Source: Nothopassalora personata
Taxonomy: Eukaryota; Ascomycota; Dothideomycetes; Mycosphaerellales; Mycosphaerellaceae
Length of the DNA stretch: 64,000 nt
NCBI GenBank assembly: GCA_033816765.1
Contig: CM066293.1
Span: 3,658,001-3,722,000 of the forward strand
Direction of reading: 5' to 3'
Shown here: positions 1,160 through 64,000 of the stretch, one piece after another
Numbering within the stretch: position 1 is the stretch's first letter
How the letters are laid out: each line of letters begins with the position of its first letter
The notes under the pieces: generated by a model
Told to the model about the DNA's origin: nothing
What the model saw: only the letters and a program-made list of their open reading frames with translations
Databases searched by the model: none
Translations under genes and position numbers: made by a program

Positions 1160-4100
1160 GCGATGTCCTGCTGTTGGACTGATAGGCGTGGCCCGGCCGT
1201 GTAGGCGTGGGTCGTACTCTAAAACACACTCAGCTTCCACCGAGGTGCACTTAACCGGTGCCCTTTGTTCGCTATCCGCCGATATATAGCATGAGAAAGA
1301 GTTCCACGAGTGCACTAAGCTATGTGTGTGCAAACCGTGGACGTGACTTTGAGTCGCGCGGACGGTGCGCATTGGCAACAGGCTCGCCTTTTCGCATCGG
1401 AGGCTCATGATCGATGCATGCGGTGGCTACCGCTGGTATCTGGTAACGACATTCTCAGCCAAAGCCGCGAGCATTAGGACGGTTATGATCCATGGGCGAA
1501 CAGAGCCTGCCTGCAGCAATTTTGATCTACAACGTCGAGCGAGCCCGAGAATGTTTCAGTCCATCGACCTTAGTGTAGCGATCAAAGCACCTGGATACAT
1601 TCCCCTCCATACTCGAACCTGTCAATTCGACCGCGTGCAGAGCGGACGCTGATCGGACGAGCGTGGAGCATTGGTCTAAACGCTATTGACCAGGTCTGTT
1701 AGGGCTGCTTTACCCGTGTGCCCGGCCTGGTGGCTGTCGCCACGGGCGCTGGATTACATCTGCTCGTCGTTCACTTCGCTGGAGTTCTTCTTTGCTTGTT
1801 GCCCGCTTCCCCTATCATGGTTGATTAGATTATTGACGGCTATCCACGATCTACCCATCTCCCGCTCCCGACCCTTTCTTCGATCTTGAAGCTCGCAGCA
1901 CCGTCGGGGCACGCGAGCGGGACTTTGCGGACCTCGTCGTACTACATCACAAGGTGTGGAGGAGCCACGGTAGGCCGCCCCGTTCCCGTCGCTGTACTCG
2001 GCGGTACTCTCTATGTCCGATGTGGCCGATGTGGTGACTCGCCGCGGTGAGGTCGGCTGATCGACCACCGGACAGACCGCAAGGGCACCATTTACTAACA
2101 TTGGTTAGATGGGTACTACCGACATGGCAATGCCGTCGGCGCTGCGCTTTGACGCCAATCTGAACACGGACGCACGGAAAAGGTCATCTGGGTTCGCACG
2201 TCGCTTATCGCAAGGCCACATTTGATCGCTGTCAGCTGTCGGCATATGTCCATGGCGACCACACCCATGCCAGGCGGACGTTTTCGCTCACGTAACTCCG
2301 CATTTTGAAGATTGTGCTCAGATCAATCAGACACTCGGCGCATTCGCCATGACTTGCGACCGGAAAATGCATCAAAGCTACGGACAGCCTCGCAGGCCTA
2401 CTATCTCCTACGCATCCCGTGACCACAAGCACCCCTCGGTCGGCCGACACGGCATGCACGCGCATCGAGAATCGCCAGGACAGTCTTCCTGGTCCGGCGC
2501 CGATTTCGTACAGGCATCGGTTCTATTGACGGTCACACGCTGAGTCGCGGCCTATGGTCCTGCAAGGTCTCCTCCGCCTGTATTCTCAGCCTGCTTCCGG
2601 ACTCGATCTGCACAACCCTTCTATTTGCCCCTGTCTCCCAGTATGAAAAGGGCATCCGCGTCTCCTTCAGCTCCGGCAAGCACCTTCTCACGCCCTTGCG
2701 TAGCTGTTGCAAGGCGTTCTTCGTCGTTTCCGGATGGAATCGATCTTCTCCTGCTCCAGTTGAGTCTTTCTTATGTCGCAGTCGGCGTAAGTGTCCGGCC
2801 CCGCCTCCGATAACATGACCCGCAGACCGATGGGGTCACAGCAACGAGGGTCTTGGTAATCCCGCCCACTGATGCCTCCTTACCCGCGCGTACGTCCTTC
2901 AGGAATCCCAGGCGTTGTGCTATCCACTCGTGACAGAGCCTTTGCGTGGCGTACAATTCCTTGTTCTCCAAGTCCGTTGAGATCCCTTACAGCCGTCCAT
3001 CGTCCCGTCCGTTGTCTTCTCGCTTCTCTACCACACCGATCATCACGGTCTCCATTATCCGCGTAACCATCTCCTCAACGAGTGCGGCTCCATAGCGAGC
3101 CACGGTCAAAGCGCACTTTCCACTCGGCGCTCAGCGTCGAGGGGAGTGAAATGTCTCGTGCGAACGTTGACAGTAGCAGCTTACAGCCAACAAACGCCGC
3201 CACTTCGATCTACGCGGCCGGGTGTTACGCCAGAGACTCATCGAACTCTTTCCGATGCACTCTCCCACATCCAAGTCCTTTGGCGTACGTGTTCGCGCAT
3301 AGCACCTTTGTGCTCCGCCCACACAACTCACTTGCACCAGTCTCTGGGTGACGAGCAACGCGGGCGCGACGTCCTTACCCTGCTGCACATGGGCCTCGTC
3401 CTGTTCCGGCTCGAGGATGGACAGCCTCTTTTTCCACACTTCGATCCACGGCACCGATAGCGCCTCTGTCCTCTTTGTGGCCCTCTAAACGCTCGATCCG
3501 GTCTGGAAGGGACCCTAAGAGACCAGGTTTCTCATCCAGTGCTGCAGTGTTGCACCTCGAACGTTCTGCATTAATAGGAACATCCGACCTTCCAGACGTC
3601 TGACGTTATTAGCTATCACCTTGATGTGGAGTTGCAGTGAGCTCGGGATACCGACTACAACGAGAAAGGACTGGCAACGGCAGCCGGCCATCTGAGATCA
3701 TCTTTGCAAATCTGAGCAAGCAGCCGGGCAAAGTGGCCAGATCCGAAATGGGAGAAGTCGCTGCTGGGTCTGTCGAGCATCGCTCTTAGCTCCAGGTACA
3801 AGCCCTGATCGACAGTTCAAGGCGTTCGTTGGCCTGAGTTTATCCTTGGATGTCGTCTCGTGACTGGAATGGAACACAGAACCGTGCTGAGTGGATAATC
3901 CAGCTTCTCCTTTGATTCTCCAGATTTCACCCTTGCCCACTGGCGGAGCTGTAAGAAGATCTGGACTATACCCGTTGATTTCGGTTCCCTTTCGCAAGAC
4001 GATCGGCACAATTGCACTATCGCGTGGTCTCAAGAGCGAACTGTGAGGACATCTAGCGCAACGCAGGATTAGCTGTGCGCAACATATGATCAGTTTAGCA

Positions 4101-6080
4101 CAATTCAATGTCACTTGGGGGGCAATGCCGAGTCAGTTCTGGCGTAATGCAAGGTTAGTCTAGCGAACCATAGCGTTAGTCTTGCGAGCTTGTGAAGGAG
4201 CTGCACGGCATCTTTCGAGGTTGGGTCTTTTCCGACGCGCTGGTGGGTGCCACTCGCTCGTTTCAGCACCTCGAACAAGTGATCTGTGCATGCAGCAAAA
4301 CAACCAAGTAGCACTCACGTCCTCGTCGTGTTAGCTAACAAATATAGCAGAACTCATGTCATGCGGCAGAGTAGTGAGGGAGGCATCATCCCAGTGGTAG
4401 ATCTAAGATCTTAGATTACACTTTCGGATCCCGGCTAAGGTCTGGACCCTTAAAGAGGGCTGCGCTAGCAAGGGTCTCCCTGCTCATCTACCGGAATTGC
4501 CCAGCGGGTCGTCGTTTATCGCAGATTCTAACTGCTTGACTGCGTCGCGACAGAAGTTGCCTGGCGCTGGGTCGACGCGAGTTTTGGCGTAATCTGTTCA
4601 TATCTCAGGCGAAGGGTAAAGACAGGCCAGGACGTGGGAAAGTCATGGGTACGAGCGGTGAGTATAAACGGCAAAGCACGATGAGCTTTTACAGGAAACA
4701 GGAAAAACCCGGCCGCGCCCACCGTCGAACTCAAATCAAACCCAGAATGTACTTCACCTCGTGCCTCGCAATGTAACCCCCATGATACAAGTATCGGTCA
4801 ATGTTCTTCAACAACATTACCTGTCCGAGAGGAGGTGATCGAAGGAACGCCTGCTCGAATGGTTGATCGCCATCAGATTGCGCCCGGGTGATGCAAATCG
4901 TGCGAAGTCTGGAGTTCTCCAGCATCATCGCGACAGGCATGGGCTGTATTCTCTAGCAATCTGAGTCTCTAGGTATGAAACAGTATGTGATCACTCGTGC
5001 ATCCATCTCTCGTGACTAATAAGTGCGCCGAAGACAACCATACAGCGCACACGGCTTCACCACGGGTCAAATCGGCGAGAACTTCAAGCTCGCAGGCCCT
5101 CAGGACTTACCAACAACAATCTCCGACGGCTGTACGGGCATTCCATGGTCTTAGAAGGCCAAATCCAGGCCTGATTTTCACGGTACGCAGCGCTTCTTAT
5201 GACGCTGCTCTGCCGCCTCAGCCGTGGTTCGTGTTTGCCTGATCTGGGCCGCACTACGCCCGGCAACCATTCGCTACGTACACTTTCTCGAACATGCCTG
5301 ACTCGAGGCTGTCAGTAGTCAGATGGTCCTGCCGATCGGTCCTTGAACTTGACCGAATGACTGATCTCACGTTCTCGTATTCTGACACTTCAGCCCCTGT
5401 ACCAACGTTCATATGGTCAATCCACTGGCGGTGTTGTGCGTGTTGGCACAGCCGCTGAGATCAAGCGACGACATTCGTCGTGGTAGCTTGAATCCCTTCG
5501 TTGCTCGTTGAAAGGCTTAGTCCTAGGGCCCAGCCCGAAAGCTGATGGAAAGCCTGGACAAGTACGAAAACATGTAAGGTGAGGCCCCTAAGCACGGTCA
5601 TTGTCGATGAAGAAAGCACTATTGGCGGATCAGTTGGCAGGCCTTGTCGAGAGGGGGGTCGAAGGTTGCATCTGCTGTCAACAATCGCAAGCCAGGCGCT
5701 CCTAGGAGATCAATCGGTCGAGCGGCAAAGTGAAATCGGCCTTAAATAGAGGCAGCAAAGTTGTTGTCGTATGAGGTAGGTCAGAGGTCTTCGAGCTGAC
5801 TCGCCATTCCTATGCTGGATTTATTCGGAGTAGCGCATTACGAAGCACGAAGATACAACATAGAGTACTACGACACAGTCAGACGACCAACAACGGGATA
5901 AGGCAGTTTACACAATGGCAATACAGTTTGGAGTAAAACGAGTGCACGGCACCTTAAAACAGGTGTAGCACGCTGCTGCGGCCGCTCAGATCTCGTAAGT
6001 CGACAGTCTCAATGGCTTATCCTAGTTATCCGTTGTTATACAGACCTAGCCCCAGGCAGTAACGCCAAGCCAAGCTCTCT
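1160..6080. other. Stretch without a supportable intact gene
   Basis: Only short overlapping frames on both strands are seen. Some minus-strand text between about 2600 and 3460 looks like an old coiled-coil protein spread over three frames (QLEQEKIDSI, EERLATATQGREKVL, WKKRLSILEPEQDEAHVQQ), and plus-strand text near 1880-2030 (DPFFDLEARSTVGARERDF) also looks coding. None can be assembled into a gene. A minus-strand 69-codon frame at 4731-4940 is protein-like but isolated. Confidence 0.4.
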
Positions 6081-6421: not shown

Positions 6422-6961
6422 CTAGGCACGTTGCTTCTTGGGTGTGTATGCTGTGCATACGCTTCGAAGAGGGCGACAGGTGAGGAAGGAGTTGGTAGGT
6501 TCTGTGGTAGTTGGGGAAGGCTGCGAGTTGTGTTGTACTTTGTAGTTGGTGGCCTTGTTTTGCTTCTTCGCGGGTTTTCCTTTTTGGGCTGTATTGAGTA
6601 TTGGGAAGGTTGCTTTGAGTTTCTGGGCTGTATTGAGTACTGAGAAGGTTGCGTTTAGTTTCTGGGCTGTATTGAGTATTGGCAAGGTTGCTTTGAATTT
6701 CTGGGCTGTATGAGTATTGGGAAGGTTGCTTTGAATTTCTGGGCTGTATGAGTATTGCGAGTCGTGCTTGTTCCTCAGTGAAGCTGCACTTAGGTGAATT
6801 GGCCGAAATGAGGCCAGGTTAGCTATTGATGGTCTGGCGCGACACGGGCGTTGTGTTGGAGGAGATGTCTCATGCGCGTGCTGGAAACGTGTGATGTGGC
6901 TACTGCCGCCACTGTATTCCCCTGGCCGCCACCTTATCATGTCAAGATGTGTGTATCTCAA
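6422..6961 (-). CDS. Hypothetical repeat-bearing protein (179 aa), doubtful
   Basis: The frame reads across a tandem array (see 6580-6757), giving copies of a 13-residue unit of the type NTAQKLKATFPIL, followed by a lysine-rich segment (KGKPAKKQNKATNYK). No conserved domain, signal peptide or membrane segment is seen. The 39-bp units keep the frame, whereas the 38-bp units at the other end shift it, so purifying selection on this frame is not evident. A further minus-strand frame downstream at 6089-6325 (VQEVEDDLSEVWKYLVG) is protein-like and could be a 3' exon or a decayed end of the same gene. It may simply be a minisatellite with an open frame. Confidence 0.25.
   Translation of the reverse strand: MRYTHLDMIRWRPGEYSGGSSHITRFQHAHETSPPTQRPCRARPSIANLASFRPIHLSAASLRNKHDSQYSYSPEIQSNLPNTHTAQKFKATLPILNTAQKLNATFSVLNTAQKLKATFPILNTAQKGKPAKKQNKATNYKVQHNSQPSPTTTEPTNSFLTCRPLRSVCTAYTPKKQRA
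6580..6757. repeat. Tandem repeat, ~38-39 bp unit, about 4.5 copies
   Basis: Successive copies of a unit containing TTTCTGGGCTGTATTGAGTA followed by a TTGGGAAGGTTGCTTTGA-type half. Early units are about 39 bp and late ones 38 bp through loss of a base (GTATGAGT instead of GTATTGAGT). Copies differ by a few substitutions. Confidence 0.85.
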
Positions 6962-7191
6962 AAGTTCGCGTGGTGAAGTGCAATTTGTTCAAGAAACAGA
7001 AGCCGGTCTCATCCCGCTGCGAGACCCACGCGAAGCATCAATACCTTATGGGCGCAGACAGCGTGGCCTTCATCGGCCTCAGGACATGTCAGACATGTTT
7101 CATGTTCAACAATAAAAGGAAGACTGTTCGACCTGATCGAAGGGTCCAGAAGGGCGTACAGGCAGTAAAGACAAAGAAGCGTGCGGCGTGA
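6949..7191 (+). CDS. Possible exon of a small basic Cys-containing protein
   Basis: An 80-codon open frame ends in TGA at 7189-7191. It contains spaced cysteines and histidines (CETHAKHQYL, then RTCQTCFMF) followed by a strongly basic tail (NNKRKTVRPDRRVQKG, KTKKRAA) resembling a nuclear-localisation signal. The frame has no ATG, so it would have to be a 3' exon; an upstream ATG at 6947 is in another frame. The CxxC pair plus basic tail could be a zinc-binding nuclear protein, but this is inference and the segment may be non-coding. Confidence 0.25.
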   Translation: MCISKVRVVKCNLFKKQKPVSSRCETHAKHQYLMGADSVAFIGLRTCQTCFMFNNKRKTVRPDRRVQKGVQAVKTKKRAA

Positions 7192-7440
7192 GCAGCAAAT
7201 CAAGCCAGTAATCATGGCAATGTTGTCAACGACCTACTTATATCAAGTATCTGTATCCACGAGCAGATCCCATACACTCTCTTCGTACCCAAATCTTTAC
7301 TCGACCGCAGACTCAGCCGAGATCAGTCTCTACCGAAACACCTTGCCCATTTATTGCCAATTATCGTCATCAAGTACATTTCAACAAATATCCGACTGCT
7401 TGCTGAGCATTCAGACATCTTGCGCATCGATTGCAAGCCC

Positions 7441-7506
7441 GTGAGTCCTACCCTGCCCTATCAAGTATCCCAAATCTTCCTCATTACCATCGCTGACCCA
7501 GACCAG
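7441..7506 (+). other. Probable 5'-UTR intron
   Basis: Donor GTGAGT, branch-like CGCTGAC and acceptor CAG in ideal fungal spacing. It lies directly upstream of the ATG at 7522. Confidence 0.5.
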
Positions 7507-7521
7507 TCACATTCAGTTGGC

Positions 7522-7809
7522 ATGCCTCCAAGACGCCAGAAGCCTGCGACAGCAGCACCAGCACCAGCACCAGGATCCGCACCAACATCAGCAGCGGGGT
7601 CACTGGCGCATGCGCGAGTGATGGCACTTGGCAGCTATCGTTTGGCGACGGTGGAGGTGACGGTGATCAGGTTGATTGTGGTGATGCTGCTTCTTTGCGC
7701 GGGATGGTGGTGGATGGCACGCGACATGGAGTCGGAGTGCGCGCGTGGGCTGGCAGAGGCTTGGAATCGAGGTCGCCAGCAAGGATGGCAAGACCTGAGC
7801 GTGGATTGA
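7522..7809 (+). CDS. Small single-pass membrane protein (95 aa)
   Basis: Starts at the ATG of MPPRRQKPATAAPAPAPG and ends TGA at 7809. Residues about 1-30 are Ala/Pro-rich. Residues about 53-70 form one hydrophobic helix (VIRLIVVMLLLCAGWWWM) flanked by arginines, then a short acidic/basic tail. The 5' region contains a convincing intron, GTGAGT at 7441 to CAG at 7506 (66 nt) with a CGCTGAC branch site 11 nt before the acceptor, so the transcript probably begins before 7440 and the ATG is the first in exon 2. No family is recognised; the likely location is an endomembrane or the plasma membrane. Confidence 0.5.
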   Translation: MPPRRQKPATAAPAPAPGSAPTSAAGSLAHARVMALGSYRLATVEVTVIRLIVVMLLLCAGWWWMARDMESECARGLAEAWNRGRQQGWQDLSVD

Positions 7810-8455
7810 GTGTCTGAGATGATGGTCATGTAGTGGGTGATGTGATTGAAGCATGCATGAGGTCATCCGTACTGCACAGTTTTTGAGAAAAAGTGTTGCT
7901 GGTTACTGCTCCTCACACAGTGGCCCGATTCTGATGTAAAGTGGATGCATGATGTCGGATCAACCTGTAGATGATATTACTATACTATTGTATTGATTGG
8001 TGGAGGTGTGATAATGCTGGTGATGGCCTGTCTGGTCAGTGCGGTTCGAAGCTGAGGAGTAGGAGAGCCAGCGGACACTTGGCATTTTGAAGTGATTGCA
8101 GAAGGTGGTGGGTGGTGGCAGCAGCGCAAGTTTGCTCTGACCGGCGGCGAATAAACGTTTATTCATCAAGATGGTAGATGACCTCGTAGATACACACACA
8201 CCCTCGATGGGCCGTGCAGCTGACAGTAACATGGTTGCGGAGACCCACGTCAACCAGTCCTGGTATCGTAGTTATTCTTTACGACGATGCAGTAAATGTT
8301 CCCACGCTTCAAGAAACACATGCTGTTAACATTCATTTCTTGATCTCTACTCCTCAACCCTACGAAGAAGTGCACTCGGCACCCAACCCCAGTGTAGGAT
8401 CTTCTCCCCACCCATTCCTACTTTCCCGACCAGAGACATGCCTAAGTTGAACCAT

Positions 8456-9222
8456 TCAATTAGCTGAGTTCAGTTGCATTTCTATGCGTCAGTTGTGCGC
8501 TTGTCACATCTTGAACACTTACCTTTTCGAGTCTCCTGCACCCTGACTTTTTCTCCTCTCCCGACGGCGAGGCAGTAGATGTCTGCATCATTATCGACGA
8601 AAGATTGGCGGCATTCGTATAAAGGCAGGACGATTGAAGTCCGCTTTGTCACCGGTTGGACGGTTTCGTGAGATGGTCTGCCAGGAGCAGGAGGTAGTGA
8701 CGGATATAAAGCAAGGTGCTCATTATCGCGACATTCAGAAGAGGAGGACAGCGGACGAGTCTGTTGTAGATGCTGTGGATGACGACGCGGCGAATGCTGA
8801 CCCTGCCGCATATCTTGATATCCGTTCAACAAGGGCTGATTCTGCGCAGGCGGCAATATCAGGTTTCGTGTCGAAGGAGCAACGCCCCACACCCGTGATA
8901 TACCATTATTGAAGTATGCACCCAGCGAAGAGAGGAAAGACCGGGAAGGAGAGGATGCGGGAGGCATCCTTTCTCGTATGTATAGTGCATTCTCTCCAGG
9001 ATCGCAGATGAAGCCGACTACAAGCCGTGTAATGCTGGCCTGCTGGGCCTCAGGTAATGCGATGTATTCTGGGAAGGCTTGCAGAATGGCTTCGCGGAGG
9101 ACGCGAACCATGTGCGCACTGTTGGAGCGAGCGGCGTCGAGTCTTTGAAGGCCGTAAGAGCGGAACACGTCCTGTATACGGCGAGTTTGCTCGGGATTAA
9201 GAGGTGTGTAAGATGTGGCCAT
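8456..9222 (-). CDS. Hypothetical fungal protein, two exons (about 241 aa)
   Basis: The chosen start is the ATG at 9222-9220 (MATSYTPLNPEQTRRIQ). The frame is open upstream to 9351, but the earlier text is not protein-like. Residues about 1-75 look like a compact helical domain (RIQDVFRSYGLQRLDAARS, VLREAILQAFPEYIALPEA); the middle and end are Pro/Gln/Ser-rich and probably disordered. Near the end there is GTAAGT at 8522 and TAG at 8482 (41 nt) with CTGAC before the acceptor. Splicing it gives the ending KEMQLNSAN and a stop at 8456. Reading through instead gives a CSRC-containing tail ending at 8482. Both ends are possible. No known family. Confidence 0.55.
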
Positions 9223-15349: not shown

Positions 15350-16178
15350 TGGGGCGGATGGTCATGATCAGTCAGAGTCGCAGCACCAGAGAAGTCTTCC
15401 GCGGCGTTGTTGTGAACTTGCTCCAACATTTTTTTCACACCACTGGATTATTCTCACATGCTGAACAGTTGATACTCGGGATGGCGGCTGTGCTGTACTC
15501 TCGTTTCACCGTATTATAGTAATCCAAGCTCGGGATAACAAGAGCCGAAACAACCTCGACCCGAAGAGCGTGGCAGTGTACGCGACGCGACATCGCGGCC
15601 CACGCCAGTATTGATTCCAACATGCCATCATTCACATCGTCCTGCGCGCTCATCTGCTCCGACATGGAACGCACGCAAGACCAAGCAGTCCCACGCGAGC
15701 CTCACGCCAAAACCAGACGAGCGCTGGCAATGTTGAACCTTCGCTCCTCGATTATCAGCTCACTAAACAATCATGTACATCGCCTCAACACGCTGACCAC
15801 ATACAATCACGAGATGTCTACAGCTAGCACGAGTCAACCACTTAACAATTATTGATGGGTTTGAACTAATGGACCTCAAGCTCTCCACGGAAGCCAGAAT
15901 CGACACACCAATCCTCACCGAGCAAACTCGTCAGACGCAGCACCAGCGTAGGTAAACGCAAAATCCTTTTCGCACCAAACGCTGCGATCTCAAATGATAT
16001 ACGATCTCGAGCGATGCGCGATATGGTCCGATATACGATCTCGACTATTACACCTGGTTATTAGAGCAGACATTTCAGCGCCGCAAGCTCTCGAGAAAGG
16101 ACAAAGGTAACAAAGGTAACAATGAGGCAGATCTACGGCAATAGGAGGCATCGGTGGGGCACTGTGACAGCGCTGGAT
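15350..16178. other. Intergenic stretch with two weak divergent small frames
   Basis: Minus 15435-15674 (MRSMSEQMSAQDDVNDGML) and plus 15622-15855 (MERTQDQAVPREPHAKTRRA) are protein-like over 60-80 codons, but no homology or splice signals support them. Confidence 0.3.
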
Positions 16179-16263
16179 CGGCGGAGGGAATAGCACGGCG
16201 GAGGGCATACCACGGCGGAGGGCATACCACGGCGGAGGGCATACCACGGCGGAGGGCATACCA
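16179..16263. repeat. 17-bp minisatellite, five units
   Basis: Unit CGGCGGAGGGCATACCA occurs four times exactly at 16196-16263, preceded by one diverged unit at 16179-16195 (GAATAGCA in place of GCATACCA). The perfect identity of four units indicates recent expansion. Confidence 0.95.
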
Positions 16264-17029
16264 CGGCGCAGCGCAGAAGCCGGATACTTCTCTGTTCGCG
16301 CAAGCATCGATTCTCGTGCGAGGAAGTCGTCGCAGGCCAACATCCTCTCCCTTCTCAGCGCGGATTACCATTTAAGATGAATTTGGATCATTTCCTCCAG
16401 CTGTTTTCGGGTCGCTGGAGTTCTGCAGTGTACGAGGTGGAGGCACCGCCCGCGCTTGAGCAAAGTGTATCACAGATTCCATGTGTGTACCTAGCCGGAG
16501 CTCAAGATCAAAAGTGGTAGACTGAGGTCATTCCCATCCTCTTGACCAGTCCTCTACACGCCAACTCCTGTCCAAAACATGAACATAAGAGGATCGAAGC
16601 AGAACACCGACTGAATAAGGCCCGTACTACATCATTCAGTCGACTGTTTGCCGGGTCTCTACGCATTTTCGATCACGCCGATTGCTTGCACAGTACGTTA
16701 CAGCTACAGCATGCAAGCGCACGAATCAGCCTTGTGAGTACAAACGTATTGGCACCGACGTCAATGTGCTAAAAGGAGAGAAACTTGACTGTACACCCTG
16801 AGCACCGACGTATATCGCGGAATTCAACAGCAGGCAGGTGGAGGATGGCAGATATATGTCTGTGTTTGGGAGGAATGGATCATGGGAGAATCTCCCCAGC
16901 TCAAATTTCGGTCGATTAGAGTGCTGTTAGTGACGATCGTACGGTGCCTTGCCGTGCCGAATGCCAGGATGGTTGCAGCGTGGCATACGTACTGCCAAAA
17001 GCCGACAGCTTCCTTGGACTCATCTGCCT

Positions 17030-29475: not shown

Positions 29476-29965
29476 ATGATGGCGCACGAAGAACATGGGA
29501 CATACTATACCGTCGGCACCGCCGCAGCTTTGTGGGACGAGTTACACGCATTGCACTGTCAGGTGGCCGACGGCTACGGATCGCACGACTACCACCAAGC
29601 TCTGGTGGATGCCGTCTTGCTCAAAGTCGACGTGACCATTCGAAGGCCTCCGAGCTCCAGATTCCGACCTACTACTGTTCACCTGCCTCACTATAGTACT
29701 CTTTGAGTCAACGCTATGCCGAGATAGAGGAACAGCAGTCCACGATACTGGATCTCTGGCAGCAAATCAACGCAGATTTTGTGCCGAGGGTGCGGAATCG
29801 TGTGCTTTGCGCTTGGGCTTGGGCTTTAGGCGCGCATCGTCTTCGCGGGCATGCCAAGTTGTACCTGCAGTGCGGGCTGCGGCCAATCTCGATGACACCC
29901 TGGTCCTCATCAAGCCCGGCCATAGCCCAAGTGTCACGGCCGGTCCCGTGAGGCTGATCCAATGA
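29476..29965 (+). CDS. Small hypothetical protein, three exons (117 aa)
   Basis: Exon 1 29476-29631 starts MMAHEEHGTYYTVGTAAALW. Intron 1 29632-29696 (GTGACC to TAG, 65 nt) restores phase 0 into exon 2 29697-29799 (YSLSQRYAEIEEQQSTILDL then WQQINADFVPRVRN). Intron 2 29800-29870 (GTGTGC to CTGCAG, 71 nt, phase 1) leads into exon 3 29871-29965 (RAAANLDDTLVLIKPGHSPS) ending TGA. Each junction joins two protein-like segments in the right phase, which is good evidence even though neither frame alone is long. Without intron 2 the protein ends at 29951 with a Trp-rich tail, which is less natural. Upstream, another frame (KDELLLHSLLAVVRGVRDLG) runs into ATGA overlapping the start, so an extra 5' exon or a frameshift is possible. 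Function unknown. Confidence 0.45.
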
Positions 29966-30047
29966 TGACCTAAGGCTGACCCAAGGCTGACCCAAGGCTG
30001 ACCCAAGGCTGACACAAGGCCGATCCAAGGCTGACCCAAGGCTGACC
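29952..30047. repeat. 11-bp minisatellite, about 8.7 units
   Basis: Unit GGCTGACCCAA, five copies exact and the others with one to three changes. It begins inside the last codons of the gene model ending at 29965 and continues into the 3' flank. The 11-bp unit shifts frame each copy, arguing against translation. Confidence 0.95.
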
Positions 30048-30777
30048 GCTGTAAATCATCCGTGGTAGCGGCGAGCGTCTGGAGACCACCTGCAATATCA
30101 ACGAAAGAATGACGCCAATCAAGGTGCGGCCATCCCAGCAGCCAGTCGTGCCGACAAGCGATTCAGACACTTACAACGCACAGCTATTAGAGAGGGATGT
30201 GTGAGTACGATTAAGCGATGCACTCAACAACCACAACTGTTATTGGCGTATCCATTTAATGCAAGATGGTTGCAATGATACATAAAGCAAGCTCCAGGTA
30301 CAATATGTGCAGTCGGCTTGTTATGCGGTTTGCGAAGGTCACGAAGCTCAGACACGTGCGGGTCAAAAGATGGAGGATTCTCGGCTGTTAGGCCGAGAGC
30401 GCTCTGGATCGCGAAACATGTCGATGAACGAACGACACCTTTAGATGCTTAGACATGAAGTCGTCTACTTTCAAGTGTGCTGCTATCATTGTCATCACTA
30501 TGAACGCCGCCGTCATTGGCACAACCTACACAGCTATGACCGCTTGGAACTAAGACAGCAGCCGCCAGGACTTCCTCCCAGCACTCGGCGGCAATCGCCC
30601 CCCGTCCCTCTCCCGCTCGCATCACCTCGGCTGTTGCTGGAACATTACAGCAAAAGAAGAAGGGAAAGAAGAAGAGCAAGTAGCTCGCGAAGCGTCTGAA
30701 GCGTGAGCGGTTCTCCATAGCACCTCCTGCCGCTATACATATCCTCTCTTCCGTCGTCGCCGTCTTCGCCATCGCTG

Positions 30778-56227: not shown

Positions 56228-56962
56228 ATGTCTAATCCATACTCATCAGACGCCTTTTCACGGCTCAACAGTATCCTCCAACGCCTCGGCCACGCTCCTG
56301 CCCAATTCCACCTCAGCTCCACCACTATTTACCACGCCGCTGTCCACCTCGATCCGCGCACACAAGCTCTCCTCGCCGACACCTCCGTCTACCTGAAATC
56401 GAAACTGCGTCAAGGCAGGAAGGCCGCCTCGAAGCACGTCGCCAAACACTCGCTCGCTAAGGATTTGGCTGATTCTCTGGAATTGGTTGTTGCGGCGGCG
56501 GCGGGTGGTGGTCAGCAGCACGAGAAGAAGAAGACGGCGTTACCACCACCACCACTGCCGAGAGCGGCAGCACACACTCCTGTCCGGGCTGCGCCGGCGA
56601 AGAAGACGAAGAAGACGAAGAAGAAGGCAAAGGCGCAGAATGCCAAAAGAACGGATCACCATGAGAGCAACATCCAGACCAATGACGGCGGAGGCACTGG
56701 TCAAGCGCAAGAGCAGCACCACCTTGCACCACCCTCCGTCCCTGCCATGATGATGGTACCGCCAGTGACCTCTTTGAAGCGGAAGGGAGCGGAAGCCCCA
56801 CACACACAAGGCGGCAACAGCGCTGGTGCCGGTGCCGTCTACACTCGCAGCGTAGGAAATCTTGTGGCAGATGGACAAGGACGAGGAGGAAGCGCCGACC
56901 CGGACGATGTCGCTGCTGCGAGAGCTGCCAAGAGGATGCGACTGGCCTCTGGACTGGTGTAG
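56228..56962 (+). CDS. Lysine-rich, probably nuclear protein (244 aa)
   Basis: ATG 56228 (MSNPYSSDAFSRLNSILQRL), preceded by CCAAC, a good fungal start context. Residues about 1-85 are an ordered helical domain (IYHAAVHLDPRTQALLADTS, VYLKSKLRQGRKAASKHVAK, HSLAKDLADSLELVVAAAAG). Residues 95-145 are Pro/Ala then strongly basic (AAPAKKTKKTKKKAKAQNAK), a nuclear-localisation or DNA-binding tail. The rest is Gly/Ala-rich with a second basic patch at the end (DVAAARAAKRMRLASGLV). No histone fold or HMG box is seen. GAA-rich text in the middle generates large antisense and alternate frames, which are shadows. Function unknown; chromatin association is inference. Confidence 0.7.
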   Translation: MSNPYSSDAFSRLNSILQRLGHAPAQFHLSSTTIYHAAVHLDPRTQALLADTSVYLKSKLRQGRKAASKHVAKHSLAKDLADSLELVVAAAAGGGQQHEKKKTALPPPPLPRAAAHTPVRAAPAKKTKKTKKKAKAQNAKRTDHHESNIQTNDGGGTGQAQEQHHLAPPSVPAMMMVPPVTSLKRKGAEAPHTQGGNSAGAGAVYTRSVGNLVADGQGRGGSADPDDVAAARAAKRMRLASGLV

Positions 56963-59035: not shown

Positions 59036-59220
59036 TATCAGCCAAACGATTCGCGTTGCAGACACAAGCAGGAGCGCAACCTCTTTTTCCCTTTCCTGGG
59101 TTTCGACAATGAAAAGAAGAGAGACCCATTTGCACACAGTAGAGAACAGCGCAGCCGCGTCGCAGACATTGTCGTCATGATACACTTACATGTAGAGACA
59201 CTCCAAGCAGGCAGCAACAT

Positions 59221-59480
59221 CTAACCACACTTCTTGTTCTTACGGCGGCAGGCACCGCAAGCAGCAGACCACACAGTACCGGCAGTAGCAGCACCCATTC
59301 GCGGGTACTGGCGACACTCTTTCTCATACGGCGTCTTGCCGCGGCACGAACGACAGACTTGCGGTCTTGGCTTACTAATACCAGGCGATGGGTTATATTG
59401 CCGGCAAGCGTCCACTTCATCAGCCGGTCAGAAGACTGGCCACCTTCACCGGCAGCCACGCGCGCGAAAGGTCGTCCCAT
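59221..59480 (-). CDS. Cys-rich C-terminal segment with paired CxxC motifs
   Basis: A minus-strand frame ending TAG at 59221 reads DACRQYNPSPGISKPRPQ, then VCRSCRGKTPYEKECRQYP and SAACGACRRKNKKC near the end: eight cysteines in a C-x2-C / C / C-x2-C pattern with a basic tail, typical of a small zinc-binding module. Upstream, an ATG at 59480 (MGRPFARVAAGEGGQ) follows a strong acceptor (GCTAACG then TTATACAG), so this is probably a 3' exon of a spliced transcript. It lies directly downstream of the H3-tail-like frame on the same strand and could be its last exon. I could not find a junction that keeps every segment in frame. Confidence 0.4.
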
Positions 59481-59527
59481 TCCTGTATAAACGTTAGCTA
59501 CAATCAAAGAGTGCGTATTTTCGCAAG

Positions 59528-60061
59528 TCAAGAGCTCGAGTCGAGCTGAGCTGAGCTCAATTCCACATAACTCAAGGACAGAGGACTGAAGAAATACACA
59601 ATCAGGCCGTCCTCATGTGGCGCGAAGGCCAGAGCGGACTGCTCTCGAGCAGCGTCTTCTGGCTGTTGTTGCTGTTGCTGCTGTTGCCGGGCAGGCGCGG
59701 CAGTCGATAGTATGGACTTACGGGCTTCCTTAAAGGCGAGCTGCTTACGTAGAGCCTTGCCACCGGTGGTCTTGCGAGCGGCCTTGGGGGTGTGCTTGCT
59801 ACAGATAGGTCAACTTACCGCAACCAGCGATCAGGATTTGAACAGTGTTTACTGGGCGGCGCGATCGTGGTAGAGAGACTGGCGTCTATAATGGTATCAG
59901 CTTGCTGCTGTGCCGGAGCGGCAGAGCTGTGCCGGAGGGGCAGACTGGAGCAACACGCTTGAGCCTGGAGAAGAGGACTCAAGCTAAGAGACATACGCTA
60001 TGAGGGAGTAAAGGGATGCTGGTGAGGCGCCAGGCGCACCGAGCACAAAGAGACGACCCAT
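59528..60061 (-). CDS. Histone H3 N-terminal-tail-like protein without histone fold
   Basis: Model: exon 1 60061-59997 (MGRLFVLGAPGASPASLYSL), intron 59996-59799 (GTATGT to CTGTAG, 198 nt, TTGAC near the acceptor), exon 2 59798-59528, stop TGA; about 111 aa, phases agree. Exon 2 begins KHTPKAARK then TTGGKALRKQLAFKEARKS, which aligns with H3 residues 4-28. Equivalents of K4, K9, K14, K18, K23 and K27 and both ARK(S/T) cores are kept, with a three-residue insertion before A7. After STAAPAR come seven glutamines and a tail of ~45 residues (EDAAREQSALAFAPHEDGLI) unrelated to the H3 core. The frame lacks its own ATG, so it needs an upstream exon. A TATATAA box at 60232-60226 precedes the start by about 165 nt. 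A decayed H3 copy is the alternative. Confidence 0.55.
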
Positions 60062-60188
60062 TTCGTTTGTGTCGGTACTGTGGTCCTTGTGTTTGCAGTA
60101 ATTTTGTGGTTGGTTGTGAAAGGGTGTGCGTGTGATGTATAAGTATCGAAGGAAGGAAAAGAGTGCTCCGAGAAGTCTCACTTGAAGC

Positions 60189-60276
60189 GAATGGGGTCAT
60201 AGGTCGGTGCCCGTGCACAAGCTGGTTATATAGCGGCCTTTCTTCCTCCGTGGACCTCACACAGTCAAGACACATG
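60189..60276. repeat. Direct repeat copy 1 (~88 bp)
   Basis: About 80% identical, in the same orientation, to 60943-61035; shares CCCGTGCACAAGC, ATATAGCGGCCTTTCTTCC and TCAAGACACATG. The two copies bracket the copia gag fragment. Confidence 0.85.
60226..60232 (-). promoter_or_regulatory. TATA box for the H3-tail-like gene
   Basis: TATATAA on the minus strand inside a GC-balanced context (CGCTATATAACC). It implies transcription starting near 60200 and a leader of about 135 nt ahead of the ATG at 60061. A diverged copy (GCTATATCACC) lies in the duplicate at 60943-61035. Confidence 0.45.
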
Positions 60277-60439
60277 CACCACACAGTGAGTGGGAATACG
60301 TCTTCACGCAATTCTACACGACCTCCCTCATAACCTCACTGTCGCTACAAACACCCAACAGCTGAAAAGCAGGGGGTGAGCGACACATGCACAAACATCA
60401 CCAGATCGAACACGCGACGCGACTCGAGACCCAGCAAAC

Positions 60440-60688
60440 ATGGCCATCGCCAACACGAGCTACACCATGAACAAGTTGAAGGCGGATGACAACAACTATG
60501 AGACCTGGAGCGTCGACATTGAGGCAGTCTTGCGACGCAACAAGCTACTGCGATACACACAGGTCAAGAAAGAAGAGGACCCGAGTCTAAAGGACACCTA
60601 CGACGAGAAAGTAGCTAATGCTGCCATTCACATCACCCTTACCACAGCGGACGACATCGCGATTACCAAGGCCTTCACCAGTTCGTAA
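60440..60688 (+). pseudogene. Ty1/copia Gag N-terminal fragment (82 codons)
   Basis: ATG 60440 then MNKLKADDNNYETWSVDIEA and VLRRNKLLRYTQVKKEEDPS. The 'L-x-x-x-NY-x-x-W-x-x-x-(I/M)-x-x-x-L' pattern is the standard start of copia Gag (capsid) proteins, and the following helix (YDEKVANAAIHITLTTADDI) fits the next segment of that domain. A stop at 60686-60688 and non-coding sequence after it remove the rest, including zinc knuckle, protease, integrase and RT. It lies 379 bp from, and divergent to, the H3-tail-like gene, between two copies of an ~90-bp repeat. Confidence 0.65.
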
Positions 60689-60942
60689 GGCTACGACAAT
60701 GACGACTGGCAACTCTGAATGCACCCACACCCACACCCACACCTATATCTGAAGACCGACAACGCCTGAGAAGCAGGGTTGATAAATGAACTGCAATCAA
60801 CGCCACCTGCAAAAAGCAGGGGTTGCGGCAGCCGAACTGAATGAATGAATACTGCATTGGGCTACAACGTGGATAGATCGAATAAGGATACATACTCACC
60901 TACGTGCGACAGCGTGTGTCAGGCACGAGGTGTGTATTGCAG

Positions 60943-61035
60943 TGAATGGGTCGGGTCATAGGTCCCTGCCCGTGCACAAGCCGGTGATATAGCGGCCTTT
61001 CTTCCTTAGTAGACCTTGTGTAATCAAGACACATG
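60943..61035. repeat. Direct repeat copy 2 (~93 bp)
   Basis: Counterpart of 60189-60276. Downstream and upstream flanks of the two copies are unrelated, so the repeat is about 90 bp long. Confidence 0.85.
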
Positions 61036-61039
61036 TGTT

Positions 61040-62020
61040 GTCGCCAGTTCGCCAAACCGCGTATTTGATCAAATAGGCCCTATTGTGTCACACAACGCTT
61101 CTGTATATGATATATCGCGTGAGTAGGTGTATTTCATCCAAACGTGTCGCATGCGTGTCGTGTTACTATCACTATTGCTATCGTTCTGGACCCCTTACCC
61201 TCACTGCCCTCAAGCTCGGTGGTGACGCGCATACACCGAGAGTCGTTGCAACACAACTAGTCGCTTAATCAACACGATGTGCGGCTTAAAATGCTCCGAT
61301 TGATTATGCGAAGACAGAATAATTATGTTTGAGGTGTTGCGGTCGCTGTATTGTGGAGATGCAGCGAGGTGAAGGTGTAGTGTCGCATTGCGACAGAGGG
61401 CTTAGCGGGCTTCGGGCTTCGGCCGAAGCTTCCGAGATTTCCGAGCTGTGACGTGCTGGTAAGCTGCAATACAATGTGTTTCGAACGGACGACACTACAC
61501 TACAACGACACTTTCCTGATGTATGGTAGCATCGAATAATGGTTATCCGAGAGTGCTATAGCCATGGTGTAGTGTATAGGTAGTGCCATAAAGAGATTTC
61601 GAGCTGAAGCCGACATTGCGATTTGAGACCTCTAGAGATTCGCCGTGCGCGCCTACACCTCGTACCGGTGTTATGTATAGCGCTATATGTGATCAAAGAC
61701 GCGCTATTTAATAACGATAAGCAATATATCTTATGTTAAGCGATAGGTGAAAGGATCAGATGTAATAGGCGCTATTTGGTCAAATACGGACTTTGATGAA
61801 CAGGCGAATACACATGCAACATCCGTCAAGTGTCTCGCGGTTTTCCAATGCCTGTCCTCCATTGTCCTGAATCATACTGCTGTCGCTGCGTGACGTCTTG
61901 ATTGTATGCTATTGTAACCTATTGTCCAGCTATTGTCCTTGAATATGCGGTTCCCAGTCCTATAGGTTGTTGGAGGATGCGATCCTGAGGCACGCCACCC
62001 TATGAACACGTCGTCTCTTA
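61040..62020. other. Gene-less stretch with short palindromes
   Basis: Contains the perfect 14-bp palindrome TATTTGATCAAATA at 61062-61075, a one-mismatch relative TATTTGGTCAAATA at 61783-61796, and GCTTCGGCCGAAGC near 61424. No coding frame is supportable. Confidence 0.6.
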
Positions 62021-62026
62021 GCAAGT

Positions 62027-62347
62027 TTGGTGAGCAGGTTGATGCGATACTGTATTGACAGCATCAAAGTGTGCCGAGCGGCGTCTTCGCGGAGGCGAGG
62101 GATGTCGGTCAGTGAATGCCAAGAATCCGTCAAGCCGTCCATAGATGTACGAAGAAGAATATTTATACCTCGTCATTGGTATAGAGCACTGACTCGCAAG
62201 GGTGCAGTAGCAGGCCCTATGAACAAAAAAGTGCTCTTTGTACAGAAAGGGGCACAGCTCGTTCCTAAAAGTGAGCTAAAGCCGACTGAAAAACTCATGA
62301 CCCGAATCAATAAGCAGACCCCAAAGGCAGGAACGACACAGCCTTAA
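62027..62347 (+). CDS. Basic hypothetical frame (106 aa), weak
   Basis: The frame (MVSRLMRYCIDSIKVCRAAS) ends in a lysine-rich part (MNKKVLFVQKGAQLVPKSEL, KPTEKLMTRINKQTPKAG) and stops at 62347. No known domain; an overlapping minus frame exists at the 5' end. Confidence 0.25.
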   Translation: MVSRLMRYCIDSIKVCRAASSRRRGMSVSECQESVKPSIDVRRRIFIPRHWYRALTRKGAVAGPMNKKVLFVQKGAQLVPKSELKPTEKLMTRINKQTPKAGTTQP

Positions 62348-63457: not shown

Positions 63458-63727
63458 TCAACTTGGAGGCCTCCTTGGGGACGCCGTCTTCGCGGCAGCA
63501 GCAGTGACTTGATGAGCTCTGGACATACCAGCAGGCCGCCGTGTTGATACATTACTTGTCGATGGCGCTGCCGCGTTCCCCGGAGCATCATTGTCTTGGA
63601 CCGTATTGTCTTGATCTATAGGTTCTTGATCACGAGGTTTTTGAACCGCAGGCTTTTCCGCCACATTCCCATGAATGGCTGTTCTTGTAGCGATGGTGTA
63701 GGCCTCTGACACCAGTGTTGCAGCCAT
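63458..63727 (-). CDS. Hypothetical low-complexity protein frame (89 aa)
   Basis: ATG 63727 (MAATLVSEAYTIATRTAIHG), then QKPRDQEPIDQDNTVQDNDA and a basic end (AAAAKTASPRRPPS). It overlaps by two bases, head to head, with the start of the plus-strand frame at 63726, so at most one of the two ATGs is likely to be a real start. No domain seen. Confidence 0.3.
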   Translation of the reverse strand: MAATLVSEAYTIATRTAIHGNVAEKPAVQKPRDQEPIDQDNTVQDNDAPGNAAAPSTSNVSTRRPAGMSRAHQVTAAAAKTASPRRPPS

Positions 63728-63809
63728 GATTGCCGTGCGAAATACTGATAGCTTTAACTACGTGGCTATGATTGCCGTGCGAAATACTGATAGCTTTAAC
63801 TACGTGGCT
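63726..63809. repeat. Perfect 42-bp tandem duplication
   Basis: ATGATTGCCGTGCGAAATAC and the following 22 bases at 63726-63767 are repeated without change at 63768-63809. 42 is a multiple of three, so the reading frame is kept. Exact identity means a recent event, or a sequencing/assembly artefact. Confidence 0.95.
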
Positions 63810-64000
63810 GACTGTTTTGACTTCCCCATTGAGGTTCTTGCTGACATTCTGGTTGTGAAGGCTCGGGCATTCCTTTCTGATAAGCTTAAACTAGCGTACC
63901 TGTCGAAGGGGAGACATGGTACTCGGCTCAACACATTGTTTGACTGTAGCTTGTGCGGCGTGCCTGTTAGTAAATTGAACATGATTCTTGGCTCAAAATG
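63726..64000 (+). CDS. N-terminal part of an unknown protein, cut by window end
   Basis: From ATG 63726 the frame stays open to the last base, 91 codons: MIAVRNTDSFNYVA repeated once, then DCFDFPIEVLADILVVKARA, FLSDKLKLAYLSKGRHGTRL and NTLFDCSLCGVPVSKLNMIL. The context GCAGCCATG is good for initiation; the second copy at 63768 may have been the original start. The text is helical with a CxxC. No family is recognised from the visible part. The gene or exon continues beyond the window. Confidence 0.45.
   Translation, partial: MIAVRNTDSFNYVAMIAVRNTDSFNYVADCFDFPIEVLADILVVKARAFLSDKLKLAYLSKGRHGTRLNTLFDCSLCGVPVSKLNMILGSK

Follow-up and report, generated by a model that had tools for sequence, protein, structure and literature searches.

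Histone H3 sequences carried by fungal DNA transposons have been described in hAT elements. Six Mycosphaerellaceae genomes, with Pseudocercospora, Cercospora and Sphaerulina represented, contain hAT elements with transduplicated H3; in the consulted sections of that report, the elements are characterized by a hAT domain, an 8-bp target site duplication (TSD) and a near full-length H3, 94% of the copies matching only exon 3, which encodes the histone fold (PMC6710886). The accessible portion of a second paper describes a hAT element of Pyrenophora tritici-repentis whose H3L gene includes the globular domain, is represented by ESTs and occurs in nearly identical copies, and asks whether selection keeps such captured genes (PMC3538342). 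Among integrase-type transposons, Ginger2 elements have 4-5 bp TSDs according to the excerpts consulted (PMC2836005, PMC10045372), while among non-histone proteins the mammalian EZHIP is presented, in the part of the account used here, as an H3 K27M-like inhibitor of PRC2 (PMC6513997).

The locus analysed here lies in a stretch of 64,000 nucleotides (C7:3658001-3722000 of a 54.5-Mb assembly; hereafter the window) and is, with little room for doubt, a decayed relic of an accessory gene that belongs to a family of DNA transposons. Judged by its introns, its gene content and its RIP-like damage, the host is probably a filamentous ascomycete. In common with the hAT-H3 elements, as far as they are covered by the consulted sections, the family consists of DNA transposons with terminal inverted repeats (TIRs) in which H3 was captured and amplified, with RIP-hit copies and an intact original H3; it differs from them in its integrase-like transposase, its 5-bp TSD, the restriction of the H3 sequence to the tail, the multi-exon chimeric gene that holds it and the RING-like neighbour of that gene (PMC6710886). 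The Pyrenophora element, in the accessible portion of its description, likewise has an H3-like ORF between TIRs beside an ORF of unknown function, whereas the tail gene described here is devoid of a globular domain and most of its copies are damaged (PMC3538342). An integrase-type DDE transposase, TIRs and a 4-5 bp TSD are features shared with Ginger2/TDD and other integrase-type transposons; the termini (CCTCG../..GGCC) are unlike the TG..CA-type ends of Ginger1 and IS481EU, in a comparison that rests on the excerpts consulted and on features rather than on a phylogeny (PMC2836005, PMC10045372).

An initial annotation had pointed to a look-alike of the H3 tail on the minus strand, and our searches bear this out. 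The stretch concerned, SKHTPKAARKTTGGKALRKQLAFKEARKSILST, belongs to a 93-aa stop-to-stop frame (59809-59528, minus strand) and matches H3 with 70% identity over 30 aa (tblastn in the window, E 4.5e-7). A phmmer search of PDB sequences with this frame returned 128 matches, the best at 6e-5, and the 60 best were H3 or CENP-A/Cse4 entries. The best H3 score was 39.7 bits as opposed to a maximum of 26.9 bits across 30 shuffled versions of the window (2-base blocks); these shuffled windows and the existence of a copy family rule out a chance match as the source of the H3 likeness. The core of the tail, KTTGGKALRKQLAFKEARKS (59714-59773, minus strand), comprises 20 codons equivalent to H3 K9-S28, of which 16 of 20 residues and 52 of 60 bases are as in the host H3 gene. 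Exon 2 of the gene (59528-59798, minus strand), in which the tail segment is followed by polyQ and a linker, is part of the frame, for which Pfam gave nothing at E values of up to 1. In agreement with the original claim that no fold follows the tail, none was detected between window positions 56501 and 62500, nor, with E allowed up to 0.1, in 19 element loci of 8 kb each; among the 23 loci searched, the same query found a fold at the host H3 locus only (E 1e-55). In each of the three lineages that were compared (the window copy and lineages A and B), identity to H3 has ended by S28-P30, lineage A having P at the S28 position.

Equivalents of K9, K14, K18, K23 and K27 are present in register in the window and in L011, the least damaged copy of the gene, located on C5. 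The same five lysines are found in host H3 and in both units of the lineage-B copy L024 and, as read by eye from the alignments, at 18 of the 19 loci, the exception being the lineage-A copy L013, which has lost K14. The statement that all classically modified lysines are kept thus holds for these five positions and fails for K4: the tail segment is internal to the protein and lacks both K4 and the ARTKQT N-terminus. The residues preceding K9 in related copies read SKAARK, identical to the segment before K27, and since they resemble a partial second K9-R26 unit, the lysine of the KHT motif seems to belong to a repeat unit and is not H3 K4. One 18-aa H3 unit (K9-R26) and a portion of another seem to make up the array; that of lineage B has two full 18-aa units and part of a third. 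The survival of lysines in damaged copies says little, because AAG lysine codons are poor targets of RIP.

The structure of the gene is best seen in L011, in which four open exons with consistent phases join to 248 aa, or to 258 aa if exon 3 begins at an upstream TATAG acceptor. The three predicted introns (L011 positions 3727-3876, 4102-4421 or 4102-4451, and 4642-4709) have GTATGT or GTAAGT donors and TAG or CAG acceptors, and carry CTAAT/CTAAC-like sequences that fit the branch-site consensus. The predicted product starts with MGRFFALGAPGASPASLYSLA-, followed by the H3-like KHTSKAARKSTGGKAPRKKLASKAARKPAP, a Pro/Ser/Gln linker, a basic segment and a Cys-rich end (CRSCRGK...CGACRRKNKKC). This C-terminus scores 17.4 bits against DUF3716, under the Pfam cut-off of 22, and is hence referred to as DUF3716-like; DUF3716 has no match in the window frame. 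Exon 1 of the window copy (MGRLFVLGAPGASPASLYSLI plus 2 nt; 59997-60061, minus strand) is 89% identical to that of L011 at the nucleotide level, versus 66% for the intron. Intron 1 (59799-59996, minus strand; 198 nt, GTATGT..TGTAG) aligns with a 150-nt intron of L011, its conserved GTATGT donor and its TAG acceptor occupying matching positions, and the splicing considered plausible in the initial annotation remains plausible. The last exon (59209-59511, minus strand), encoding the Cys-rich DUF3716-like C-terminus, retains 84-87% nucleotide identity with L011 and is frameshifted relative to it, its product being split over two frames with 57% and 81% amino acid identity. Exon 3 was not found at the window copy. 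Searching a protein database with the 258-aa L011 product, among the 7989 candidates sharing most words with it, gave two matches, both to proteins with histone-fold Pfam domains. Residues 1-53 had 251 matches at E up to 1 among 400 proteins of 142-451 aa, the best 120 of which included no recognisable relative, and residues 168-258 had no match among 39 word-sharing candidates of 142-451 aa.

A genome search with the 93-aa frame located the tail at no fewer than 19 loci, namely the window, 11 loci of lineage A and seven of lineage B. Its 29 rows were grouped by hand into these loci, six second units of lineage B, one host H3 gene and three rows set aside because they did not resemble the element (C12:587397, C1:3440070, C8:753685); copy numbers are lower bounds, given that genome searches score the best candidates only, and the evidence on the family comes from one genome. 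A search with the last exon gave 17 rows: L011, 10 other A loci, two rows in the window, one weak B-type row and three further A-type loci with a last exon and no tail row (C2:123142, C8:2369490 and C6:1029676). Host H3 is encoded by one intron-bearing gene (C7:1538975-1539414), and a second, partial match to H3 at C6:2966300 is probably CENP-A.

RIP-like stops interrupt the H3-tail gene at 17 of the 19 loci, stops being found in the last exon of the 10 other tail-bearing A loci and in exon 2 of seven B rows. RIP-like TA/AT values reach 1.7-3.3 per kb in the L019 copy, compared with 0.46-0.86 in an adjoining stretch without a match to the C5 copy. Values are 1.2-1.95 per kb in the C5 copy and 0.30-0.69 in its outer flanks, suggesting that even this copy is probably somewhat affected by RIP. 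For the window copy the RIP index is low (TA/AT 0.46-1.05 per kb).

Comparison of the copies revealed a repeat with terminal inverted repeats. The C5 element (loci L032 and L011) measures about 8.4 kb, its ends being matched at C5:4795176 and C5:4803585, and paired TIRs 7.9-9.3 kb apart are present at four A copies, those other than the C5 element lying at C12 2470160-2478420, C3 4180116-4188058 and C7 3973979-3983302. Both copies whose two outer flanks were read are bordered by 5-bp target duplications (CCCAG and CCTAT). The element ends read CCTCGTAG...CGGCC, the outer GGC being common to nine of 10 right ends; the tenth, at L026, was matched only from inside the repeat. We note that ends of the element also face each other at distances of 46, 55 and 91 kb (C5:3432159-3477979, C2:69147-123989 and C8:2279547-2370324), for which heavily nested or very large elements are a suggested reading.

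In the transposase region of the C5 element (7071-9170 of the joined L032 and L011 sequence), translated pieces have matches of 46-87% in lineage B. Six of seven such pieces are collinear with a C8 locus that holds a stop and matches the rva_4 integrase core with 63.8 bits; direct matches of the element to rva_4 lie below the cut-off of 26, at 22.2 bits in one ORF and 17.8-21.6 bits in two A and three B copies. Judged by these similarities, the putative transposase resembles integrase-core (rva_4) enzymes and not those of hAT elements, a likeness to which we attach no superfamily name. The DUF659 model (PF04937) matched neither here nor in controls and is uninformative. Between the transposase and the H3-tail gene lies a RING-like gene, so called because a stop splits the RING motif of L011, whose best half scores 24.2 bits against a Pfam cut-off of 27; the ORF just upstream of this motif is 37-41% identical between lineages A and B. 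A second family of rva_4 integrase-core transposons, over the cut-off, was seen at C8:2114221 and eight other loci, each of the nine with at least one stop.

The window copy is very probably dead. Its transposase is missing, the homology breaking off at 6826 of the joined C5 sequence and continuing at 9082, and no TIR is recognisable at this copy (best fit, 14 mismatches in 32). Part of a decayed RING-like gene (63836-64000, minus strand), 70% identical to the C5 copy over 462 aligned nucleotide positions, runs past the window end; its translated matches contain stops and gaps, and more pieces lie at C7:3722316-3722598. Element sequence is again recognisable upstream of the H3-tail gene (61832-62084, minus strand; 79% nucleotide identity with L011), beyond a block of foreign DNA with approximate ends (60156-61818), the element homology extending to about 60155 and resuming at about 61819-61832. 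This block begins upstream of the H3-tail gene, about 95 bp from its ATG. The TATA motif at 60233, which had been put forward as a TATA box, lies within the block and is therefore not the gene's own. The motif (TATATA) forms part of the first copy of an 83-bp repeat (60194-60276, plus strand) that is 84% identical to a second (60953-61035, plus strand); the two direct repeats, perhaps LTR remnants, flank a Copia-Gag-like ORF (60401-60688, plus strand; DUF4219, 22.9 bits, under the cut-off of 27). The divergent Copia Gag neighbour noticed at the outset is thus real as a Gag-like ORF, albeit as a later insertion rather than an original neighbour of the gene, and the suspected link to a transposon exists in another form: the gene sits inside a multicopy DNA transposon instead of free-standing beside one. 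The remainder of the foreign block includes a MITE-like insert of 785 bp (61032-61816) with 53-nt inverted arms that are 79% complementary. Minisatellite-like tandem repeats are present elsewhere in the window at 6576-6749 (39 bp), 16162-16292 (17 bp), 29940-30060 (11 bp) and 63723-63806 (42 bp).

Comparing the window with L011, nucleotide identity is 89% in exon 1, 81% in the tail, 87% in the last exon, 66% in the intron and 62% in the linker. The ratio dN/dS (NG86, with bootstrap intervals that rest on few sites) is 0.28 (0.14-0.55) over all 121 codons taken together, indicating constraint on the gene as a whole during the divergence of the lineages; it is 0.14 (0.04-0.40) for the 70 codons of the last exon and 0.51 (0-2.3) for exon 1. 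Treated separately, as the initial annotation had proposed for a comparison among strains, the tail has a value of 0.51 (0.17-2.02), which is not distinguishable from neutral. The tail is less conserved between window and L011 than exons 1 and 4. Core comparisons, which are small samples and involve A and B copies carrying RIP changes, gave a dS of 0.22 and dN of 0.05 for host H3 versus L011, 0.32 and 0.10 for host H3 versus the window, 0.87 and 0.12 for L011 versus the first B unit of L024, and 0.38 and 0.25 for the window versus the second B unit. The evidence on the tail is accordingly mixed, in that it was kept better than neutral parts of this gene and has no significant constraint of its own.

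The explanation that we propose builds on the element and its copies, the open and phase-consistent L011 model, the absence of a fold and the constraint on the whole gene, all of which were observed. The tail was in all likelihood derived from H3 by capture, an ancestor of the family having presumably acquired about 60 bp of the H3 gene, codons K9-S28, from within one host exon. The captured piece would then have been repeated, partly or fully, in 54-bp units and become part of exon 2 of the four-exon gene predicted by the splicing model, whose product would begin with a conserved N-terminus, carry the H3-like tail internally and, after a low-complexity linker, end in a Cys-rich domain. Such a protein might be nuclear and serve as a chromatin bait, with K9-K27 modules that would be bound or modified by host H3K9/K27 methyltransferases, HP1 and acetyltransferases, and the most likely outcome would be weaker silencing of the element or tethering of its proteins. 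The RIP-like damage seen in the host indicates that its repeats are under pressure to escape such defence; RIP acts on DNA, and a chromatin bait need not touch it. A model for bait action may be found in EZHIP, as portrayed in the part of its description used here, which is similarly a non-histone protein with an H3-tail-like peptide; no common descent is suggested, position 27 is a lysine in the present case, and inhibition would be hypothetical (PMC6513997). Taken together, we lean towards a relic of a transposon gene for which the chromatin-bait mechanism is a lead rather than an established part. That the tail had a selected role as bait in the intact element is conceivable and, on the sequence evidence, somewhat doubtful. 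We regard as unlikely the more elaborate proposal that the transposon evolved a dedicated H3-tail mimic, in which repeated K9-K27 modules joined to a Cys-rich, probably zinc-binding domain would attract host enzymes of silencing or acetylation to the element or divert them from it, while a RING-like E3 ligase of the same element would act alongside. If true, this would represent transposon counter-defence by histone mimicry; such mimicry is known mainly from viruses and EZHIP.

Other readings differ in how much of the above they accommodate. The H3 piece may have been captured by chance through transduplication and carried along, as a basic disordered linker, in a gene selected for its other domains; to this we give close to an even chance, the last exon being clearly constrained and the tail alone not, and three A-type loci having a last exon and no tail row. 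The fate of H3 copies borne by Mycosphaerellaceae hAT elements, all of which except the original are RIP-inactivated according to the consulted sections, points the same way (PMC6710886). A mere passenger would nevertheless not be expected to be better preserved (81%) than the intron and linker of the same gene (62-66%), to be retained in three lineages and repeated in units in lineage B, or to be better kept between A and B than exon 3, as is the case between L011 and the first B unit, where 15 of the 20 core residues are identical as opposed to 42% of exon 3.

The low RIP index of the window copy, its open exon-2 frame and its standing as the sole member of its lineage found in the searches would suit a free-standing host gene for an H3-tail mimic from which the transposon copy originated. 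This is very improbable given the decayed element sequence, including the RING-like gene, that adjoins the copy, the frameshift in the last exon, the failure to find exon 3 and the proximity of foreign DNA to the ATG. Nor does the open frame require selection, since in a neutral simulation a 93-codon frame stayed open with a chance of 0.44 after 20 changes, 0.21 after 40 and 0.10 after 60. An eroded 5' part of a full-length H3 copy or retrocopy, the alternative that the initial annotation had itself named, could explain the bases shared with the host H3 core and is yet more remote: fold debris is absent from the window stretch and from the 18 other loci, in searches that detected host H3 at once, and the end of identity by S28-P30 in all three lineages is difficult to reconcile with erosion. 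We give equally little credence to membership in the published Dothideomycetes hAT-H3 transposons. The event is similar, in that a fungal DNA transposon damaged by RIP has H3 sequence between its TIRs; the TSD is of 5 rather than 8 bp, however, the captured part is the tail instead of the fold, the transposase is integrase-like, and none of the eight genome matches to the hAT dimerization domain (PF05699) falls at a tail locus.

A literature search, with thin coverage of subscription journals, found no transposon gene with an H3 tail only; whole-H3 capture by fungal hAT elements is published, and the tail-only, chimeric capture on an integrase-type element seems to be new. Repeated tail modules in a constrained transposon gene cannot, without a fold, serve as a nucleosome component, which isolates the tail as a potentially useful unit and makes the question of its usefulness testable with peptides and sister genomes.

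DUF3716 exceeds the cut-off at C13:778985 and C13:782846, in long open frames of 215 and 399 aa, and 12 further matches in frames of 51-67 aa perhaps represent another repeat family. Several other proteins among the listed matches to residues 1-53 look like errors in H3 gene models. Near-perfect H3 tails were also seen among these matches in proteins with no histone-fold annotation, for example at the C-terminus of P0087, internally in P0090 and after ankyrin repeats in P0073. These are possibly independent H3-tail mimics, with no visible kinship to the transposon gene, and their sequences suggest that H3 tails may have been grafted onto other proteins more than once.
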